Assembly: GCF_006539725.1 (NCBI RefSeq)
Contig: NZ_BJNO01000004.1
Span: forward strand, 248,001 to 312,000
DNA: 64,000 bases
Reading direction: 5' to 3'
Origin: Klebsiella terrigena
Lineage (GTDB): Bacteria; Pseudomonadota; Gammaproteobacteria; Enterobacterales; Enterobacteriaceae
Shown here: piece by piece, positions 27,162 to 36,392 of the stretch
Layout of the letters: the number at the start of each line of letters is the position of its first letter
How positions within the stretch are numbered: position 1 is the stretch's first letter
Translations under genes and position numbers: made by a program
The notes under the pieces: generated by a model
Database searches by the model: none
The model's input: the letters and a program-made list of their open reading frames with translations, nothing else
What the model was told of the DNA's origin: nothing

Positions 27162-27920
27162 CTAGCTAATCAGCATCGCCTGCGCGCTGTAGAGTAAATC
27201 AAGATGATCGCGGCACAGGGCATCAAGCGAGGTCCGCGACAGATGACTGGTCAAGCTCAGCGCCCCCCAGTACACCCCTTCCCTGTCCGCCAGCGGCACT
27301 GCCAGCACTAGCATCCCAATTTCAAACTCCTGCTCAATCGCGGCGTATCCCTGCCGACGGATCTGGGCAATCTTTTCCATTAGCGGTGCAATATCGGTCA
27401 CCGTATAAGGGGTGCGCTGTTCGCGCCTGATGCGCTGCAGGACCGCTTCGCACTCAGCCTCAGCCAACGATGCCAGCCACAGACGTCCGCCGGCTGTGCA
27501 GTAAATCGGTACCCTCTCACCCAGCCGAACCGAAGTGGAGTTAAACGGCGTATGTTTGCTGCGGGCGATATAAACCAGCTCGTCATCATCAATCACCCCA
27601 ACCGAGGCATGCTCCTCCGTGCGGCTGGCAATGTACTCAACAATCGGCCGCACCATCCGCGGGAACTGGGCTGAATCAACATAGGCCTGCCCCAGGCGCA
27701 GCGCTTTTGGCGTCAGCCAGTAGTAGCGTCCGTCGGTCTGCAGGTAGCGCTCATGCAGCAGGGTGAGAAAGAACCGCCGCGCCGCGCTTTGCGTCAGCCC
27801 GCTCATTTTTGCCGCCTGCGGGACGGAGAGACGGGGATACTCTCTTGAAAAAAGCTGGATCAGCGCCAGCCCTTTTTGCAGTCCGACGATCAAATCGCGT
27901 GGATGTATTTGGTTTTGCAT
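27162..27920 (-). CDS. IclR-family regulator of the PcaU/PobR type
   Basis: 252 residues. N-terminal winged helix (about 25-75: SVPQAAKMSGLTQSAARRFF) and a C-terminal IclR effector domain (about 85-250: GERVPIYCTAGGRLWLA). The beginning GLQKGLALIQLF and this effector segment resemble PcaR/PcaU/PobR, regulators of protocatechuate, hydroxybenzoate and quinate genes. It diverges from the AroE-like operon; the gap contains an operator-like palindrome plus direct repeat (27957-27985), consistent with control of that operon and of itself. The effector cannot be named from sequence. Confidence 0.82.
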   Translation of the reverse strand: MQNQIHPRDLIVGLQKGLALIQLFSREYPRLSVPQAAKMSGLTQSAARRFFLTLLHERYLQTDGRYYWLTPKALRLGQAYVDSAQFPRMVRPIVEYIASRTEEHASVGVIDDDELVYIARSKHTPFNSTSVRLGERVPIYCTAGGRLWLASLAEAECEAVLQRIRREQRTPYTVTDIAPLMEKIAQIRRQGYAAIEQEFEIGMLVLAVPLADREGVYWGALSLTSHLSRTSLDALCRDHLDLLYSAQAMLIS

Positions 27921-27956
27921 AGTTGTTCACACTTTTGCAACAAGACACTCAGTTTA

Positions 27957-27985
27957 GTGCGATTATCGCAGTGATGGTGCGATTA
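27957..27985. promoter_or_regulatory. PcaU/PobR-type operator: palindrome plus 20-bp-spaced direct repeat
   Basis: TGCGATTATCGCA (27958-27970) is a perfect 13-base palindrome around a central T. A second TGCGATTA begins at 27978, exactly 20 bases after the first. Three half-sites, two as a palindrome and one as a direct repeat two helical turns away, are the layout described for PcaU and PobR, and the palindrome resembles the PcaR site GTTCGATAATCGCAC. It lies 37 bases before the regulator start and 88 before the operon start. Confidence 0.75.
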
Positions 27986-28072
27986 ACAACCAACATGTCC
28001 GAATTCTGCGTTGCCGCTCCCAGCGTCCACTGAAATACTTTCACAACATTCATTTAACAAGTGAGGTTTGAA

Positions 28073-28894
28073 ATGGTCAGTGGATTCACTCAGGTTGTTG
28101 CCGTTATCGGCCACCCTATTACACAGGTTAAATCACCGGAGAATTTCAACCGTTACTTTGCCGGGCAGGGCCAGGACAGCGTGATGATCCCGGTTGATAT
28201 CGTGCCGGAGGCGGTGGCTGACTACCTGAACGCGTTACGTGGATGGCAGAATATGAGCGGCGTGCTGGTTACCGTTCCGCACAAGCAGCGCGTCGCCTCC
28301 CTGGTCGATGAGCTCACCCCGCGAGCGCGCCACCTCAACGCGGTAAACGTAGTGCGTAAGCTGCCGGACGGCCGCTTACAGGGCGATATGCTGGACGGCG
28401 TCGGCTTTCTGCTTGCCGCAAAAATGCGGGGATTTCAGGCCTGCGGAAAAAAAGCGCTGCTGTCAGGCTGCGGCGGCGTAGGGAGCGCCATCGCATGGGG
28501 CCTGTGCGAAGCGGGTATCAGCCACCTGACTCTCCACGACCAGAATTCGGCCACTCTGCAGCTGCTGCATAACCGCCTGGCCACTCGCTTTCCAGAGCTG
28601 CACCTCGCCACGCTGCCGGACACCCTTAACGGCTTTGATTTGCTGGTCAACGGCTCCCCCGCCGGAATGAGCGGCTTTGACGCGCTGCCGCTGCCGCAAA
28701 CCCTGCTGGATACGCTGGAGGCCACCACCTATGTCGCTGATGTCGTCACCGCGCCGGTGATGACTCCCCTGCTGACCTTCGCTCAAGCCCGGGGCTGCGT
28801 GGTGCAAACCGGGCCTGAAATGGCCTTAGCACAGATGAAGCTGATGGGGCAGTTCATTGGCGCCATCGCTCATGAAGAAGGGGCGGCCGCATGA
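28073..28894 (+). CDS. Shikimate/quinate dehydrogenase-like oxidoreductase (AroE paralogue)
   Basis: 273 residues of the AroE fold. The catalytic pair is conserved: K71 in VTVPHK and D108 in GDMLDGVG, with N92 in NAVN. The dinucleotide loop is SGCGGVGSA (131-139). Two changes from biosynthetic AroE stand out. The SxS motif that binds the shikimate carboxylate reads V19-K-S21, and the NADP-specifying NRT is replaced by an acidic residue (HDQ, D156), which predicts NAD+ use and a catabolic direction. The ATG at 28073 has GTGAGG upstream; the GTG at 28061 is part of that site. It overlaps the next gene by 4 bases (ATGA). Confidence 0.8.
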   Translation: MVSGFTQVVAVIGHPITQVKSPENFNRYFAGQGQDSVMIPVDIVPEAVADYLNALRGWQNMSGVLVTVPHKQRVASLVDELTPRARHLNAVNVVRKLPDGRLQGDMLDGVGFLLAAKMRGFQACGKKALLSGCGGVGSAIAWGLCEAGISHLTLHDQNSATLQLLHNRLATRFPELHLATLPDTLNGFDLLVNGSPAGMSGFDALPLPQTLLDTLEATTYVADVVTAPVMTPLLTFAQARGCVVQTGPEMALAQMKLMGQFIGAIAHEEGAAA

Positions 28895-30567
28895 AAAGCT
28901 GGGACGTTATTGTTATCGGCAGCGGCGCGGCAGGTTTTGCCGCAGCGGTGACGGCGTGCTGTAAAGGGCTCTCGGTGCTGATGCTGGAGAAAGCGCCTCA
29001 GTTTGGCGGCACCTCGGCTATTTCAGGCGGAGCCGTATGGATTAACGATAGCGATCAGGCGCGCCAGCAGGGAAAAAGCGGCCCGGAACAAACCATAAAA
29101 ACCTACCTGAAGACGATTATCGGCGAGCAGCACTACCGCCCGGAGATGGTGGATGCCTTCGTCAGCTCAGGGCGCGAAGCGCTGGCCTTTCTGGAAAAAG
29201 AGGGCGCGGTGAAATACAGCCTGCGCCCGCTCTCTCCCGACTATTACCCGGATGAGCCCGGCGCCGTTGACGTTGGCCGCGCGCTTGAGGTCGTCGAATA
29301 CGACGGCCGCAGGCTTGGCGACCGGTTTCGTGAACTGCGATCGCCTCCACCGGGGATGCTGCTATTCGGCGGCATGATGGTCAACCGCGTCGATATTCAG
29401 CATTTTCTCGATATGCGCCGCTCGCTACGCTCATTCACCCACTGCACAAAGCTGCTGCTGCGCTATGGCCGCGATCGCCTGAAATATCCTCGGGGAACCC
29501 GGCTGGCGATGGGCAATGCCTTAATTGCGCGGATGGCCACCCTCGCCTTTCGCAAGGGCATGAGCCTGCAGCTGAACGTCAACGTAACGTCGCTCATCGA
29601 AAGCAACGGTGAAGTCACCGGCGTCGAGATTGAGCATGCGGGCCAGAGAAGCGTACTCCATGCGCACCAGGGCGTGGTGCTGGCCGCCGGGGGATTTGCC
29701 GCCGGCCGACTGGCCGCACAATACCGGCCGAAAACGCGCCAGCACTACACCATGTCACCCGACGCCAATGACGGCGCGGCTTTTCGCCTGACGGCGCCCC
29801 TGAACGCCCGGCAGGGGGCCGATTTACCGTCAAACTTTTTCTGGGCGCCGGTCTCCGTCCTGCGTCATGCGGATGGCAGCGAAGAGCGTTTCCCGCACCT
29901 CGTCACCGACCGCGCCAAGCCCGGCGTCATTGCCGTTAACCAGCGCGCCGTGCGTTTCGTGAATGAATCTAACTCCTACCACCATTTCGCCAGCGCGATG
30001 CAAAGCCTGGAGGAAAATGCGCCCTGCTATCTGATTTGCGATGCGCTGGCCATGAAGCGCTATGGACTCGGGCTGGCGCGTCCCGCCCCGGTCAATAACG
30101 ACGCGCTGATAAAGGCCGGCTATCTGCATAAAGCGGATTCTCTTGCCCAGCTCGCGCAGGCGCTAGGGATCGATGGACAAACCCTGACCGCTACCGTCAG
30201 CCGATATAACCACGATGCCGCCAGCGGCAGCGATACGGAATTTGCCAGAGGGGGCAACAGCTATAACCGCGTAATGGGCGATCCCGGCCACCAGCCTAAC
30301 CCCTGTAACGCCCCGCTCACCGAGGCACCCTTTTACGCCATCACGCTCTATACCGGTGATTTGGGCACCTCACGCGGGCTGGTCACCACCGCCGATGCTC
30401 AGGTCATTAATCAACAAGGTCAGCCCATTAAAGGGCTGTATGCCGTAGGCAATGATATGGATTCACTGATGGCCGGGACCTACCCCGGCCCCGGAATCAC
30501 TCTCGGCCCGGCGCTCACCTTCGGCTATCTCTGCGCCACCCACATGGCGCAACAACCCGCACTTTAA
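28891..30567 (+). CDS. FAD-dependent dehydrogenase, KstD/fumarate reductase-like (first copy)
   Basis: 558 residues. N-terminal Rossmann FAD motif GSGAAG (10-15) with the acidic ribose residue in MLEK, then FGGTSAISGGAVW, typical of FAD_binding_2 flavoproteins. The C-terminus carries TYPGPGITLGPALTFGY. There Y531 and G535 keep the Y-x3-G spacing of 3-ketosteroid delta-1-dehydrogenases (Tyr487 and Gly491 of KstD), residues that polarise the ketone and act in catalysis. No signal peptide, so cytoplasmic. Likely an alpha,beta-desaturase of a cyclic ketone. Translationally coupled to the AroE-like gene. Confidence 0.78.
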   Translation: MKSWDVIVIGSGAAGFAAAVTACCKGLSVLMLEKAPQFGGTSAISGGAVWINDSDQARQQGKSGPEQTIKTYLKTIIGEQHYRPEMVDAFVSSGREALAFLEKEGAVKYSLRPLSPDYYPDEPGAVDVGRALEVVEYDGRRLGDRFRELRSPPPGMLLFGGMMVNRVDIQHFLDMRRSLRSFTHCTKLLLRYGRDRLKYPRGTRLAMGNALIARMATLAFRKGMSLQLNVNVTSLIESNGEVTGVEIEHAGQRSVLHAHQGVVLAAGGFAAGRLAAQYRPKTRQHYTMSPDANDGAAFRLTAPLNARQGADLPSNFFWAPVSVLRHADGSEERFPHLVTDRAKPGVIAVNQRAVRFVNESNSYHHFASAMQSLEENAPCYLICDALAMKRYGLGLARPAPVNNDALIKAGYLHKADSLAQLAQALGIDGQTLTATVSRYNHDAASGSDTEFARGGNSYNRVMGDPGHQPNPCNAPLTEAPFYAITLYTGDLGTSRGLVTTADAQVINQQGQPIKGLYAVGNDMDSLMAGTYPGPGITLGPALTFGYLCATHMAQQPAL

Positions 30568-30580
30568 TCAGGAGAATGTC

Positions 30581-30901
30581 ATGATCTACGAAAAACGTAC
30601 CTACACCATCAACCCATTAAAAATGGCCGACTGGCTGGCGCTCTATAAAAGCGATGCCTACGCCGTACAAACCGAACATCTCGGCAAGTTGATTGGTTTC
30701 TTCTTTACCGAGATTGGCGTCGTTAATCAGGTGGTTCATATCTGGGCTTATGAAAGTCTTGACGATCGCCTGGTGCGCCGCGCGCGCATGGCGCAGGACG
30801 AACGCTGGCTCACCTTCTCTCGCAAAAACCGCGAGCTGGCGGCCGTCGAGCGCCTGGAGTCCGTTCTGCTGCGCCCTACCGATTTTTCACCGCTGCAATA
30901 A
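30581..30901 (+). CDS. NIPSNAP-family small protein
   Basis: 106 residues of the NIPSNAP ferredoxin-like alpha/beta-barrel fold: YEKRTYTINPLKMADWLALY at the start and VVHIWAYESLDDR in the middle are characteristic. Members often sit in catabolic operons as small enzymes or accessory proteins, and most have no proven reaction. AGGAG precedes the ATG. It is sandwiched between the two flavoproteins (13 bases after the first, 10 before the second), which suggests it acts with them. Confidence 0.75.
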   Translation: MIYEKRTYTINPLKMADWLALYKSDAYAVQTEHLGKLIGFFFTEIGVVNQVVHIWAYESLDDRLVRRARMAQDERWLTFSRKNRELAAVERLESVLLRPTDFSPLQ

Positions 30902-30911
30902 GGAGTCATAG

Positions 30912-32615
30912 ATGAGCAGGCATGTGAAAGTAGATGTGCTGATTGTCGGTTCCGGTGCGGCGGGTCTCTCAGCCGCCGTCACCGCCGCCCTCAACGGTGC
31001 CAGCGTGCTGGTGGCGGAAAAAGAGTCGGTGATTGGCGGCACCAGCGCGTGGTCCGGCGGCTGGCTGTGGATCCCCCGCAATCCGCTGGCCCGCGAGGAG
31101 GGCATCGAAGAGGACGCCAGCGTGCCGCTCACCTATCTTCAACACGAAATGGCGGGGCAACCCGCCGATGCCCGCCTGCTCACTTTTCTGCGCTACGGCC
31201 CGGAAATGATCGATTTCTTTCGCCACAACACGGTAGTGCAGTTTATTTCCGGCAGCCGGATGCCTGATTTTCACGACTCGCCAGGCTACGCGCAGGGCGG
31301 ACGTTCCGTCACCGCCCAGCCGTTTGATGGCCGCCTGCTTGGTGACTGGCTGCATCGACTGAGGCCGCCGCTCGAGACAATCAGCCTTGCGGGAATGGGG
31401 ATCGCTGGCGGCGCCGACATGGCGCATTTCTTTAACGCCACGCGCTCTCCGCGTTCTGCGCTGTATGCCACACGGCGCCTGCTGCGCCACGTCTGGCAGC
31501 GCTTACGCCACGGTCGCGGACGGCATCTGGTCAACGGTAACGCGCTGGTGGCGCGCCTGCTGCGCGCGGCTCTGGATGCCGGCGCTAACTTCCAGCTGAA
31601 TGCGCCGGTAGAACGCCTCTTAACGTCAGCAGCCGGCGTGACCGGCGCGGTATTACGCAGCGATGAGGGTCAGGTTCAGGTCAGCGCCAATGCGGTTATT
31701 CTCGCCTGCGGCGGCTTCCCCCACGATAAGCAGCGCCTGGCTCAGCATGTCGCCCACGCGGCAAGCGGCTACGGCCACTTCTCGGCCGCCCCGCCGGGCA
31801 ATGAAGGGGATGGGATCCGCCTGGGAGAGTCGGTCGGCGGCCAGTTTGACGACTCGCTCAGACACGCGATGGCCTGGGCGCCGGTTTCCCGCGTCACCCT
31901 CGCCAGCGGCCTGCAGCTGCCGTTCCCGCACCTGGTTGAACGTGCTAAGCCGGGGTTTGTCGCCGTACTGCCCAACGGCAGGCGCTTCACCAACGAAGCT
32001 GACTCCTATCACGACTTTATTACCGCCCTGCTGGAAGCCACGCCGCCTGGAGAAACTCCGCAGGCGTGGCTGCTTGCCGACAGCCTGGCGCTGCGCCGCT
32101 ATGGACTAGGCCAGGCTCGTCCGGCCCCTTTCTCAGCCAGGGCATGGCTGCGCACCGGCTACCTGCAGTCAGGCGAGACGCTGGAGGCGCTGGCAGAAAA
32201 ATGCGCTATCGATAGCGCCCAGTTGAAGGAGACCATCAGCCGCTTTAATACCTTCGCCGCCTGCGGCAGGGACGATGAATTCCAGCGCGGAGCCTCGGCC
32301 TATAACCAGGCCCAGGGCGACGCTGCCAATCCTCACCACCCGACCTTAGGCGCGCTGAGCCGCCCCCCTTTCTATGCGGTTCGCATCCTGCCGGGTTCGC
32401 TCGGATCCTTTAGCGGCTTGAAGACCGATGAACAGGCTCGCGTGCTGGACGCACAGCAGCAGCCCATCGCCGGCCTGTACGCCATCGGTAACGATATGTC
32501 GAGCGTGATGCGGGGATACTATCCCAGCGGCGGTATTACGCTCGGTCCGGCGATGACCTTTGGTTATCTTGTGGGTAAACATTTGACAGAAAATATAGAT
32601 AAAACAATGAAGTAA
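30912..32615 (+). CDS. FAD-dependent dehydrogenase, KstD-like (second copy)
   Basis: 567 residues, a clear paralogue of the flavoprotein at 28891. FAD motif GSGAAG, then IGGTSAWSGGWLW, with C-terminal YYPSGGITLGPAMTFGY. Y537 and G541 again keep the KstD Y-x3-G arrangement. Ribosome site AAGGAG. Two desaturases side by side suggest two successive dehydrogenations of one ring. A comparable pair (ChcC1/ChcC2) aromatises 4-oxocyclohexanecarboxylate in cyclohexanecarboxylate-degrading actinobacteria; that analogy is inference. Confidence 0.78.
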   Translation: MSRHVKVDVLIVGSGAAGLSAAVTAALNGASVLVAEKESVIGGTSAWSGGWLWIPRNPLAREEGIEEDASVPLTYLQHEMAGQPADARLLTFLRYGPEMIDFFRHNTVVQFISGSRMPDFHDSPGYAQGGRSVTAQPFDGRLLGDWLHRLRPPLETISLAGMGIAGGADMAHFFNATRSPRSALYATRRLLRHVWQRLRHGRGRHLVNGNALVARLLRAALDAGANFQLNAPVERLLTSAAGVTGAVLRSDEGQVQVSANAVILACGGFPHDKQRLAQHVAHAASGYGHFSAAPPGNEGDGIRLGESVGGQFDDSLRHAMAWAPVSRVTLASGLQLPFPHLVERAKPGFVAVLPNGRRFTNEADSYHDFITALLEATPPGETPQAWLLADSLALRRYGLGQARPAPFSARAWLRTGYLQSGETLEALAEKCAIDSAQLKETISRFNTFAACGRDDEFQRGASAYNQAQGDAANPHHPTLGALSRPPFYAVRILPGSLGSFSGLKTDEQARVLDAQQQPIAGLYAIGNDMSSVMRGYYPSGGITLGPAMTFGYLVGKHLTENIDKTMK

Positions 32616-32680: not shown

Positions 32681-33499
32681 ATGAACATGCGTACCCTGTC
32701 ACTCGCCGCCCTGACCGTGCTGGATGTTTCGCCGCCGGAACAGGTGCGGATTGCCGCTCAAACCGGCTTTACTCACGTCGGACTGCGGCTACTTCCCGCC
32801 ACGCCATCCGACCCAAACTACGACATGCTCGGCGATACCGCCACCGTTCGCGAAACCTTAGCCGCGCTGCGCGATACCGGTATTCATGTTTCCGATGTTG
32901 AAATTGTTCGCCTGACGCCAGACTTTGCTCTGGATGCGCAGCTGCATCTGTTTATGCAGACCGCCGAGCGCCTTGGGGCAAAACAGGTGCTGGTCGCCGG
33001 CAACGATAGCCATCTGAACCGCAGCGCGGAGAGCCTCGCGGCGCTGGCGCAGGCGGGTAAAGAGTATGGCTTAACGATGAATCTCGAACCCATGCCCTGG
33101 ACCTGCCTGCGTACTATTGCCGACGCCCGCAGCGTGATTGACGCCAGCGGCAGATCGGATGTGGGTATTCTGATCGACGCCATCCATTTCTGGCGAGCAG
33201 GCGAATCGCTCGAGACGCTCTCCAGCCTTCCGCACCATTACCTGAACTATATGCAGCTGTGTGACGCTCCGGCAGCACTCCCGAACAATGAGCAGGAGCT
33301 TATCCATCAGGCCCGCGCCGCGCGTAACGTTCCCGGCGAGGGCGGCCTCGATCTATCGGGTCTGATGGCCGCCCTTCCCGCGACGCTCGCCGTCTCGCTC
33401 GAGGTGCCGTTAAGCGGTGAGCGGGGCGCCTTACCCGCACTTGAGCGCGCGCAGCTGCTGTTCAATGCCGCGCAGTCCTATCTGCAGCCATCCGTCTGA
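32681..33499 (+). CDS. Sugar phosphate isomerase/epimerase-like TIM-barrel enzyme
   Basis: 272 residues, xylose-isomerase-like TIM barrel (AP_endonuc_2 superfamily). Candidate metal ligands are E in NLEPMPW, D and H in LIDAIHFW, and E in SLEVPL. The superfamily includes isomerases, epimerases and 3-dehydroshikimate dehydratases (AsbF/QuiC type). The latter would fit the AroE-like and aromatic-permease neighbours, but the sequence does not prove it. TGGAG precedes the ATG. The next gene starts 10 bases after its stop. Confidence 0.75.
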   Translation: MNMRTLSLAALTVLDVSPPEQVRIAAQTGFTHVGLRLLPATPSDPNYDMLGDTATVRETLAALRDTGIHVSDVEIVRLTPDFALDAQLHLFMQTAERLGAKQVLVAGNDSHLNRSAESLAALAQAGKEYGLTMNLEPMPWTCLRTIADARSVIDASGRSDVGILIDAIHFWRAGESLETLSSLPHHYLNYMQLCDAPAALPNNEQELIHQARAARNVPGEGGLDLSGLMAALPATLAVSLEVPLSGERGALPALERAQLLFNAAQSYLQPSV

Positions 33500-33509
33500 G
33501 GGACGCGCT

Positions 33510-34874
33510 ATGACACAGACTCAACGCCTGGATGTCAGAGAGTTAATTAACCATAACCCCTTAAGCCGCTATCAGAAGCTGGTGGTTTTCTTAGGTTTCT
33601 GCGTGATCGCGCTGGATGGTTTTGATATCGCGATTATGGGTTTTATCGCCCCTACCTTGAAGCAGGAGTGGGGAGTCACCAACCATGAGCTCGGCTTTGT
33701 CATTAGCGCCGCGCTGATTGGCCTGGCGCTGGGCGCTATTTTTTCCGGCCCGCTTGCCGACTGGCTGGGGCGGAAAAAAATCATCGTTAACAGCGTCTTC
33801 TTCTTTGGCTTCTGGACCATCGCTACCGCATTTTCGCAAAATATCGATCAGATGATCTTCTTCCGCTTTATGACCGGGCTCGGGCTGGGGGCTGCGATGC
33901 CGAATATGGGTACTCTGGTCTCAGAATATGCGCCGGAGCGGCGGCGATCGTTCATTATTACGATTATCTTTTGCGGCTTCACCTTCGGCGCGGCGGCAGG
34001 AGGATTTTCCGCCTCGTGGTTGATTCCACGCTTTGGCTGGCACTCCTTAATGGCCTTAGGCGGCGTGCTGCCTATTTTGTTTGCGCCGGTGCTTATCTGG
34101 AAGCTGCCTGAATCGGTGCGTTTTCTGGTGATTAAGGGCGCTCCGGCCGCGCGGGTCCGCACGATTTTGCGGCGGCTTTATCCCGGGCAAATCGCCGATG
34201 ACGCGGAGTTTACCCTGCCAGCGCAGCCCGTCAGCGGCAGCGCAATGCGCATCGTGCTCTCCCGCCGGTATCGCTTCGGCTCGCTGATGCTGTGGCTGGT
34301 CTATTTTATGGGACTTTTTCTGGTCTATCTGCTGGGTAGCTGGCTGCCGACGCTGGTTAAAGAGGTCGGCATGACGGTAAGCCAGGCGGCAATAATGACC
34401 GCTATCTATCAGGCCGGTGGGACCCTCGGTTCGCTGTTTGCCGGCTGGCTGATGGACCGCATTAATCCGCACCGTGCGCTGGCGGTTATTTTTGCCGTTG
34501 GCGGATTGTTTACCATGGCAATGGGCTATGCCGCGGCCAGCTTTACTCTTCTGTGCCTGCTGGCCTTTATTAGCGGGGCCTGTCTGAACGGCGGCAATAC
34601 CGGAATGAACGCGCTCTCTGCGCGTTTTTATCCGACCCAGGCGCGGGCCACCGGCTCCAGCTGGATGCACGGCATCGGCCGCGTCGGGGCTATTATCAGC
34701 GCCTTTGCCGGTGCCGAAATGATGGCGCTAAACCTCAGCTTTGAAAGCGTCTTTTTGATCCTCGGTATTCCGGCGGCCCTGACCGTGGCTGGACTGATTG
34801 CCAAAGAGCTGTTTGCCGATTCTCCCCACGCCGACGATAGCGCATCACCCGCCGCAGCCGGGAGCGCATCGTGA
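33510..34874 (+). CDS. MFS permease, aromatic acid:H+ symporter (AAHS) family
   Basis: 454 residues with about 12 membrane helices. The first helix LDGFDIAIMGFIAPTL contains the acidic DGFD motif diagnostic of AAHS permeases (PcaK, BenK, MhpT relatives), and the helix 2-3 loop is GPLADWLGRKK. The frame is open from 33417 inside the preceding gene, but homology and GAGGG at 33498-33502 support the ATG at 33510. It should import a (hydro)aromatic carboxylate, so the operon substrate is probably an acid. Confidence 0.85.
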   Translation: MTQTQRLDVRELINHNPLSRYQKLVVFLGFCVIALDGFDIAIMGFIAPTLKQEWGVTNHELGFVISAALIGLALGAIFSGPLADWLGRKKIIVNSVFFFGFWTIATAFSQNIDQMIFFRFMTGLGLGAAMPNMGTLVSEYAPERRRSFIITIIFCGFTFGAAAGGFSASWLIPRFGWHSLMALGGVLPILFAPVLIWKLPESVRFLVIKGAPAARVRTILRRLYPGQIADDAEFTLPAQPVSGSAMRIVLSRRYRFGSLMLWLVYFMGLFLVYLLGSWLPTLVKEVGMTVSQAAIMTAIYQAGGTLGSLFAGWLMDRINPHRALAVIFAVGGLFTMAMGYAAASFTLLCLLAFISGACLNGGNTGMNALSARFYPTQARATGSSWMHGIGRVGAIISAFAGAEMMALNLSFESVFLILGIPAALTVAGLIAKELFADSPHADDSASPAAAGSAS

Positions 34875-35213: not shown

Positions 35214-36392
35214 ATGTTAAACGGCATGAAACCCCTGCCCCGTTCCCTGCGCTGGGGGATGGTCGGCGGCGGCGGCACCAGCCAGATTGGCTACAGCCAC
35301 CGCTCTGCGGCGCTGCGCGACGACGTCTTTACCCTGCTGGCGGGCGCGCTCGATATCGATGCCGAACGCGGACGCCGGTTTGGCCAGCAGCTCGGCATCG
35401 CGCCAGAGCGCTGCTACGCCGATTATCAAACCCTGTTCCGCGAGGAGGCGCTGCGTCCCGATGGCGTCGAGGCAGTGTCGGTCACTACGCCAAACAATAC
35501 CCACTTTGCGATCGCCAAAGCCGCGCTGGAAGCCGGGCTGCACGTTATCTGCGAAAAGCCGCTGTGCTTTACCGCCGCCGAAGCCAACGAGCTGCTGGCG
35601 CTGAGCCGCCGGCAAAACAAAATCGTCGGCGTCACCTACGGCTATGCCGGATATCAGATGGTCCAGCAGGCGCGGCAGATGATCGCCGAAGGGCTGCTCG
35701 GCCAGATTCGGGTGATCACCATGCAGTTCGCCCACGGTTTTCACAACGAGGCGGTCGAGCTGCAGGCGGAATCGACCCGCTGGCGGGTGACGCCGGAGTA
35801 CGCGGGCCCGAGCTACGTGCTGGGCGATCTCGCAACGCATCCGCTGTTTATCGCCGAAACCATGGTGCCGCAGATCAACATTAAGCGCCTGATGTGCGCC
35901 CGCCAGAGCTTCGTTAAGTCCAGGGCGCCGCTGGAGGATAACGCCTTCGTGCTGATGGAGTACGACAACGGCGCGGTCGGTTCGATGTGGACCAGCGCGG
36001 TCAACAGCGGCGCCATGCATTCGCAAAAGGTGCGCGTGGTCGGTGAAAAAGCCAGTATCGAATGGTGGGATGAGCGCCCCAACCAGCTCAGCTACGAGGT
36101 GCAGGGCGAACCGGCACGGATCCTTGAGCGCGGAATGCCCTACCTCAGCCGCGAGGCGCTGGCGGACGATCGCATCGGCGGCGGCCATCCCGAGGGCCTG
36201 TTCGAAGCCTGGGCAAACCTCTACCGCCGCTTCGCTATCGCCATGGATGCGACGGATCGCGGCGACGCTGAGCTGCTGGCAGACTTCTGGTACCCGAACG
36301 TCGAGGCCGGCCTGCACGGCGTCTACTGGGTTGAACAATGCGTGAAATCCGCCGACGCCGGCGGCCAGTGGGTTGACTTTAATTTACAATAA
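35214..36392 (+). CDS. Gfo/Idh/MocA-family NAD(P)-dependent oxidoreductase
   Basis: 392 residues. N-terminal Rossmann domain (GMVGGGGTSQIG), the conserved CEKPLCF motif with the catalytic-region lysine, and GDLATHPLF with the family histidine, followed by the beta-sheet C-terminal domain. Such enzymes oxidise or reduce sugars, inositols and related polyols. AAGGAG lies 8 bases before the ATG. It stands apart from the upstream operon by 339 bases with its own palindrome and terminator, so it may be separately regulated. Its substrate is unknown. Confidence 0.85.
   Translation: MLNGMKPLPRSLRWGMVGGGGTSQIGYSHRSAALRDDVFTLLAGALDIDAERGRRFGQQLGIAPERCYADYQTLFREEALRPDGVEAVSVTTPNNTHFAIAKAALEAGLHVICEKPLCFTAAEANELLALSRRQNKIVGVTYGYAGYQMVQQARQMIAEGLLGQIRVITMQFAHGFHNEAVELQAESTRWRVTPEYAGPSYVLGDLATHPLFIAETMVPQINIKRLMCARQSFVKSRAPLEDNAFVLMEYDNGAVGSMWTSAVNSGAMHSQKVRVVGEKASIEWWDERPNQLSYEVQGEPARILERGMPYLSREALADDRIGGGHPEGLFEAWANLYRRFAIAMDATDRGDAELLADFWYPNVEAGLHGVYWVEQCVKSADAGGQWVDFNLQ

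Follow-up and report, generated by a model that had tools for sequence, protein, structure and literature searches.

The window analysed here, a 64,000 nt stretch of Klebsiella terrigena (GCF_006539725.1, contig NZ_BJNO01000004.1, positions 248,001-312,000; coordinates below are window positions), carries an operon that we consider somewhat likelier than otherwise (roughly 55%) to encode the catabolism of a reduced shikimate-like ring acid, a substrate that we infer, ending in protocatechuate. At its core are two FAD-dependent flavoproteins related to ketosteroid delta-1-dehydrogenases (KstD), FP1 (28891-30567, 558 aa) and FP2 (30912-32615, 567 aa), which flank the gene of a 106 aa NIPSNAP protein (30581-30901); all three are on the forward strand. 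The initial annotation of this DNA had placed these genes correctly, and the arrangement that it pointed out recurs in the same order in all 24 related loci kept, so it is not due to chance. It did not use the flanking genes, and the trio is enclosed by a longer operon of tightly spaced genes that all read in the same direction: a shikimate dehydrogenase family gene (SDH, 28073-28894) in front, and a xylose-isomerase-like TIM barrel gene (32681-33499) and an MFS transporter gene (33510-34874) behind.

Family placement and catalytic residues of the flavoproteins

Aligned over 559 positions, FP1 and FP2 share 40% identity, and a Pfam scan found FAD-type domains only (FAD_binding_2, 287.5 and 317.1 bits respectively), with no heme or FMN-binding domain in either. 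FP2 passes the PRK06134 subfamily model of FAD-dependent oxidoreductases (752.4 bits, cut-off 747), and FP1 lies under the cut-offs of both PRK12843 (649.7 vs 758) and PRK06134 (616.4 vs 747). Neither protein reaches any of three KstD equivalog cut-offs (FP1 and FP2 scored 423 and 426 vs 789 for PRK12844, 400 and 384 vs 788 for PRK07843, and 291 and 309 vs 793 for PRK12845) or those of the ChcC models (NF053676, 333 and 339 vs 1000; NF053677, 443 and 475 vs 900), and ChcC2, with 443 and 475 bits, is the best-scoring model that has a named non-steroid function. The flavocytochrome c model gave 167 bits for FP1 and 147 for FP2 (cut-off 285.45), and tricarballylate dehydrogenase (PRK08274) 135 bits for both. 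The best solved structure by sequence was for both proteins 7p18, a 3-oxosteroid 1-dehydrogenase (about 305 bits); urocanate reductase gave 86 bits with FP1 and 65 with FP2.

AlphaFold models of the two proteins (mean pLDDT 84.9 for FP1 and 86.7 for FP2) matched 7p18, 4c3x and 8jbz first, followed by cyclohexanone dehydrogenase, urocanate reductase and flavocytochromes. The fold is shared over the whole length with KSTD1 (4c3x) and the Sterolibacterium KstD (7p18), and the FP1 model, the one compared by VIA-align, superposes on 7p18 with a Z of 48.3 and a root mean square deviation of 2.6 over 535 residues. The Alicycliphilus cyclohexanone dehydrogenase (8am3, 8am6, 8am8), a small-ring ketone desaturase, has the same fold (Z 41.4-41.8 against FP1); it acts on cyclohexanone according to the entry titles and is 22-26% identical to FP1 and FP2. 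For FP2, Foldseek E-values do not distinguish cyclohexanone dehydrogenases from flavocytochromes (about 1e-33 to 1e-34 for both), and only the TM-score separates them (0.71-0.74 vs 0.59-0.63). By model scores and fold, FP1 and FP2 group with KstD, ChcC and cyclohexanone dehydrogenase, the side of the superfamily with ketone alpha,beta-desaturation chemistry, rather than with the fumarate and urocanate reductases, a clustering that the initial annotation had set against its own proposal.

In KSTD1, keto-enol tautomerisation is promoted by Tyr487 with Gly491, the proton goes to Tyr119 and Tyr318, and the hydride goes to FAD (excerpt of PMC5348764). The C-terminal Tyr-x3-Gly singled out in the initial annotation, Y531/G535 in FP1 and Y537/G541 in FP2, does align with Y487/G491 of KSTD1, and these columns are invariant in an alignment of 39 FP1/FP2 sequences. 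FP1 has the full quartet, with Y118, Y363, Y531 and G535 matching KSTD1 Y119, Y318, Y487 and G491. FP2 keeps three of the four (Y366, Y537 and G541), and F120 replaces Tyr119. The positions of Tyr318, Tyr487 and Gly491 are kept in 36/36 flavoproteins of a wider set, and that of Tyr119 is Tyr in all 20 sequences outside a group formed by FP2 and its TIM-linked relatives and in none of the 16 inside it (nine Phe, four Ile, two Met and one Thr). The missing Tyr119 may mean that FP2 receives a substrate that gives up its proton more readily, for example the product of a first desaturation, and two sequential desaturations by FP1 and FP2, as had been suggested initially, would be the better reading of the pair.

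The grouping was taken from a maximum-likelihood tree of 39 rows, with enterobacterial flavoproteins from 4 of 23 loci (the frameshifted L026 and L001 were left out, as in the alignments) and, as outgroups, two PDB KstD chains and one distant homologue from the window's own genome (29% identity) that was assumed to be fumarate-reductase-like. Operon FP2s, FP2-type proteins in a TIM, SDH or QuiC context and two with NIPSNAP only form one group of 16 (100/99), a separate group (100/100) unites four FP2-type proteins found with NIPSNAP and SDR genes, pobA being present as well in three cases, and the operon FP1s cluster together (97/87). Because the outgroup rows have long branches, the deep order is unreliable; the tree held no true ChcC1/ChcC2, Kst4D or urocanate reductase and, as far as can be told, its draws held no actinobacteria.

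Operon partners and the proposed link to protocatechuate

The SDH gene opens the operon, and its stop is overlapped by the start of FP1 by 4 bases. Its open reading frame begins with GTG at 28061, and comparison with PDB entry 4k28 makes the ATG at 28073 the likely start. The protein has a Shikimate_dh_N domain (70.6 bits) and passes no aroE-type equivalog cut-off (best 150.7 vs 252; TIGR00507, 126.3 vs 200.2). Its closest PDB relative is 4k28 (261.5 bits), a member of the shikimate dehydrogenase family which we take to be RifI2 of Pseudomonas putida KT2440. The SDH located beside the flavoprotein pair of Pseudomonas inefficax matches the same entry with 512.8 bits over 269/269 residues, and the window SDH is 54% identical to the Pseudomonas one.

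The TIM barrel (AP_endonuc_2, 77.7 bits) has Lmo2234 as its best PDB match and scores far below the QuiC model NF042435 (32.2 bits vs a cut-off of 1200). It is one short domain, whereas QuiC has about 640 aa and a second, HPPD-like part. When seven cluster TIM barrels were aligned with four QuiC sequences, however, all shared the Glu, Asp..His, Gln, Arg..Pro-Gly-(Glu/Gln/Asp)-Gly and Glu positions, apart from one TIM barrel in which Gln is replaced by His; these columns presumably correspond to metal-site and catalytic residues. Judged by these motifs and scores, the TIM barrel is QuiC-like but is not QuiC.

The transporter is PcaK-like, of the aromatic acid:H+ symporter type (likely start ATG 33510, alternative ATG at 33465), and is below the cut-offs of both the PcaK model (504 bits vs 770) and TIGR00895 (415.3 vs 418.55). 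Divergent from the operon, and present in 24/24 loci, is an IclR-type regulator similar to PcaR, PcaU and PobR (27162-27920, reverse strand; IclR_C, 105 bits), which narrowly misses TIGR02431 (266 bits vs 284.75). The region between it and SDH (27921-28072) is presumed from its position to hold the promoter and operator.

Elsewhere the same genome encodes pcaH (protocatechuate dioxygenase) and a separate two-domain QuiC-like protein, which at 760 bits is also below the NF042435 cut-off; behind the gene of the latter lie an MFS gene and a second gene of the SDH family. Because of this QuiC-like-MFS-SDH run, the operon in the window appears to be a paralogous module that has gained the flavoproteins. 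Among 164 Enterobacteriaceae genomes, 7 have FP1, 18 have pcaH and 13 have QuiC (E <= 1e-150). Ignoring kinship, pcaH is present in 7/7 genomes with FP1 and 11/157 others (one-sided Fisher test, 5.7e-8), and QuiC in 5/7 and 8/157 (2.7e-5). The two FP1 genomes with pcaH and no such QuiC match (G730 and G762) are as expected if the operon reaches protocatechuate alone.

Conservation and recurrence of the gene set

The FP1 scan of genome contigs gave 25 loci, of which L029 (a 101-residue match, 31%) was dropped. The 24 kept are from Klebsiella, Raoultella, Kluyvera, Pseudocitrobacter, Pluralibacter, Intestinirhabdus, Enterobacter and one Pseudomonas, and the IclR-SDH-FP1-NIPSNAP-FP2 order is present in each. 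The TIM gene directly follows FP2 in 23 of them and is nearby but inverted in Pseudomonas inefficax (L028). In 21 of the 24, as in the window, the cluster is bordered by cyoE and yajR; judged by eye, the window otherwise appears to consist of enterobacterial housekeeping genes. The initial remark that no other steroid genes are nearby holds for the eight proteins scanned at 27.1-36.4 kb, the remaining window having been inspected by eye only. Frameshifts split the cluster copies in Kluyvera genomosp. 3 (L026, 9174-13708) and K. pneumoniae CP125156.1 (L001), through either sequencing error or decay; the latter record, 5.4 Mb long, is classified as a plasmid and carries housekeeping genes.

Among the operon's proteins NIPSNAP shows the highest conservation, with a median identity of 98.1% (22 enterobacterial loci, L026 left out) compared with 96.3% for the flanking cyoE (20 loci), 82.1% for FP1, 80.8% for SDH, 79.4% for FP2 and 77.6% for the TIM barrel. 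It passes PF07978 (111.4 bits, gathering score 22.3), and its six PDB relatives are named NIPSNAP, hypothetical or uncharacterized. Its linkage is restricted to certain flavoprotein groups and occurs in both hydroaromatic and SDR/pobA contexts. A role as a general flavoprotein partner was unsupported in a blind survey, in which 3/28 NIPSNAP places were near a flavoprotein. In Caballeronia (L030) a NIPSNAP of 60% identity has no flavoprotein homologue in its 19 kb. The idea of the initial annotation that NIPSNAP may act on an unstable intermediate has become more plausible, as the protein is conserved and partly linked to these flavoproteins, and it would be a candidate for the tautomerisation to the phenol that a dienone product would need.

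The set of SDH, FP1, FP2, NIPSNAP and TIM recurs in shuffled orders in Enterobacteriaceae, Pseudomonas and three other proteobacteria. The order is SDH / FP1-FP2-NIPSNAP-TIM-MFS in L112 and SDH-TIM-FP2-FP1-NIPSNAP in L128, and genome G359 splits the set over two loci, TIM-FP1-SDH and a separate FP2-NIPSNAP (L125, L131). In these three cases NIPSNAP has a longer form of about 200 residues that was missed by tblastn and found by profile. Such two-part NIPSNAP-like proteins, of which the second half alone matches Pfam, stand beside KstD-like flavoproteins at L131 9966-10586, L132 8281-8955, L112 12953-13564 and L128 8945-9871. In Paracoccus sp. MA (L033) SDH, two flavoproteins, NIPSNAP, QuiC and pcaGHCD are found in one region.

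A smaller arrangement, in which a single FP2-TIM pair shares a stretch with QuiC and an SDH-family gene, was seen in L134, L136, L137, L142 and L143. Each of these five genomes has one FP1 match (E <= 1e-60), which is that same FP2. In L134 and L137 the stretch also includes pca genes, and that of L134 a class II dehydroquinase as well. Single SDH relatives also occur without flavoproteins, for example in Burkholderia multivorans (L031) and Agrobacterium (L032).

In total 37 FP2-type places were listed, of which 2 are the window's own, 18 lie in stretches selected by the authors and 17 were examined within 1.5 kb only. Of the 18, seven have SDH, TIM or QuiC homologues and two have NIPSNAP only (L131 and L132). 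L128 holds one place of the SDH/TIM/QuiC type and one of the SDR type, about 10 kb apart. NIPSNAP, an FP2 relative and SDR genes with pobA in the stretch are found at L128 14490-19058, L146 6326-14073 and L033 780-5636, and these proteobacterial clusters resemble the type that converts cyclohexanecarboxylate to 4-hydroxybenzoate.

Behind the window operon lies a Gfo/Idh/MocA oxidoreductase gene (35214-36392, forward strand) similar to 7d5m and 3dty. This 7d5m/3dty-like gene adjoins the operon in Klebsiella, Raoultella and two records named Enterobacter, that is in only 9/22 enterobacterial loci, and it was set aside as an operon enzyme; it is probably not an original member. In 13 loci (L006, L007, L010, L011, L013, L014, L016-L018, L020, L023, L024 and L026) the gene behind the MFS gene encodes a different Gfo/Idh, 52-55% identical to one found next to the Pseudomonas cluster, and this protein may belong to the same pathway as a variable component; no match to it was found in the window, L005, L008, L009, L012, L015, L019, L021, L022, L025 or L027. 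In Klebsiella michiganensis (L008, 16304-17791) an extra MFS_2 sugar-type transporter gene lies between the operon and the Gfo/Idh gene.

Proposed pathway and alternative readings

The regulator, SDH, the QuiC-like TIM barrel and the PcaK-like transporter are the reason for suspecting a shikimate-like acid, and as the known shikimate/quinate route to protocatechuate needs no desaturase, the substrate should be more reduced. From the observed gene content, order and conservation, the family placement and catalytic residues, the linkage to SDH, QuiC and pca genes and the co-occurrence with pcaH, we infer the following steps. The symporter would import the ring acid and the SDH-family enzyme would oxidise a ring hydroxyl to a ketone. 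FP1, with its complete KstD quartet, would take two hydrogens alpha,beta to that ketone, and FP2 would perform a second, easier desaturation on the already activated ring. The TIM barrel would dehydrate the ring when the substrate has one hydroxyl too many, NIPSNAP may assist the tautomerisation of dienone to phenol, and protocatechuate would then enter the beta-ketoadipate pathway.

Two substrates agree with this scheme in their redox count. Dihydroshikimate requires one oxidation, one desaturation and one dehydration to give protocatechuate (C7H12O5 - H2O - 2 H2 = C7H6O4), which fits the SDH-FP2-TIM neighbourhoods, and 3,4-dihydroxycyclohexanecarboxylate requires one oxidation and two desaturations (C7H12O4 - 3 H2), which fits the clusters with both flavoproteins; both counts were checked. 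The latter acid is a lactobacillus product. Lactic acid bacteria may also convert quinic acid to shikimic and then dihydroshikimic acid (excerpt of PMC13204703).

Several observations weigh against this pathway. The substrate was assigned from stoichiometry and neighbours, and several family cut-offs in the operon are missed, narrowly or widely. The co-occurrence counts for FP1, pcaH and QuiC are uncorrected for kinship, and some of the 164 genomes are as small as about 0.5 Mb. The single-FP2 clusters still contain QuiC, so that the TIM barrel there cannot simply be a dehydroshikimate dehydratase, and no NIPSNAP was found when those five stretches were searched. In 398 genomes, 25 of the 28 NIPSNAP places have no flavoprotein homologue within 1.5 kb. 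The remaining nine of the 18 FP2-type places have no SDH, TIM or QuiC context; all nine do have an SDR gene within the stretch, although such genes are too common for this to count as more than weak evidence. Finally G466, of the same genus as the window, has pcaH and QuiC and is without FP1; the operon is absent there and is therefore variable.

It is possible, though improbable, that the operon is a second shikimate/quinate-type module whose flavoproteins handle a stereoisomer or another cyclitol acid and not the two acids proposed. The QuiC-MFS-SDH run elsewhere in the genome would point to a paralogous module for a different acid, and a Gfo/Idh gene joins the operon in 13 relatives; nothing direct speaks against such a module; the two acids proposed here already satisfy the redox count with no additional steps.

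The chc cluster, reportedly the subject of work by Yamamoto in 2021, offers a further comparison. ChcC1 and ChcC2 are a pair of KstD-type desaturases that act consecutively on a ring ketone acid (excerpt of PMC9795900), and the initial annotation had likened FP1 and FP2 to them. A route of this kind, in which the pair would aromatise 4-oxocyclohexanecarboxylate to 4-hydroxybenzoate, draws on those two consecutive desaturations, on ChcC2 being the best model of a named non-steroid function (443 and 475 bits) and on the clusters of NIPSNAP, SDR, pobA and FP2 relatives in L146, L128 and the Paracoccus L033. It is nevertheless doubtful, as the scores are about half or less of the ChcC cut-offs, FP2 of the operon falls in the TIM-linked tree group apart from the NIPSNAP-SDR ones, and the eight proteins at 27.1-36.4 kb include SDH and a QuiC-like TIM barrel but no hydroxylase or P450, SDR or pobA. 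Orthology to ChcC1/ChcC2 was not borne out and was rejected on the model cut-offs (333-475 bits vs 1000 and 900).

A route to gallate appears unlikely. SDH would oxidise shikimate to 3-dehydroshikimate, a flavoprotein would desaturate C4-C5 and tautomerisation would yield gallate; this chemistry is possible on a 3-oxo ring, an SDH-family gene is the first of the operon, and gallate is formed by plant DQD/SDH enzymes (excerpt of PMC7752791). Such a route however needs no two desaturases, it leaves out the QuiC-like TIM barrel that travels with FP2, and the FP1 genomes track pcaH (7/7). A steroid dehydrogenase function of the flavoproteins, or a reductase function like that of fumarate or urocanate reductase, is very improbable, and both readings were rejected because of the model scores, the residues, the ranking of folds and the neighbouring genes: although the fold and the best PDB match are those of 3-ketosteroid dehydrogenase, identity to KstD is 27-35%, the KstD equivalog models (cut-offs 788-793) give scores of 291-426, the flavocytochrome c score falls far short of its cut-off, the domains are of FAD type with no heme or FMN-binding one, and the scanned neighbours are of shikimate/protocatechuate type, with none of steroid type seen.

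Returning to the route to protocatechuate, we tentatively suggest that it may be an undescribed aerobic pathway in Enterobacteriaceae and pseudomonads, by which dihydroshikimate and 3,4-dihydroxycyclohexanecarboxylate would be converted by way of two diverged KstD-type desaturases and a NIPSNAP dienone-to-phenol tautomerase, these reduced hydroaromatic acids being lactic fermentation products of plant quinate. If the tautomerase role is true, it would to our knowledge be the first defined chemical job for a bacterial NIPSNAP. The P. putida gene PP2604, for an aromatic-acid symporter, presumably belongs to the orthologous cluster. PP2604 is among the genes induced by the maize compound DIMBOA in a transcriptome (excerpt of PMC3335876).

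Each enzyme family is already known. No paper on this gene set or the proposed route was found among the matches listed in open-licence PMC, a weak absence as the search was limited to that collection, several result lists held 20 of 72, 15 of 28,693 and 15 of 1,309 matches, and fatty-acid desaturases swamped one of them; the same searches gave no open-licence PMC paper for NIPSNAP, shikimate and FAD together or for dihydroshikimate with quinate. If true, the proposal would extend the shikimate/quinate catabolism of gut- and plant-associated bacteria by an oxidative branch based on desaturases, and would connect the beta-ketoadipate pathway with products that lactic fermentation makes from plant acids. 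It would also provide a function for a widespread, unnamed group of PRK06134/PRK12843-like flavoproteins and a testable chemical role for NIPSNAP.

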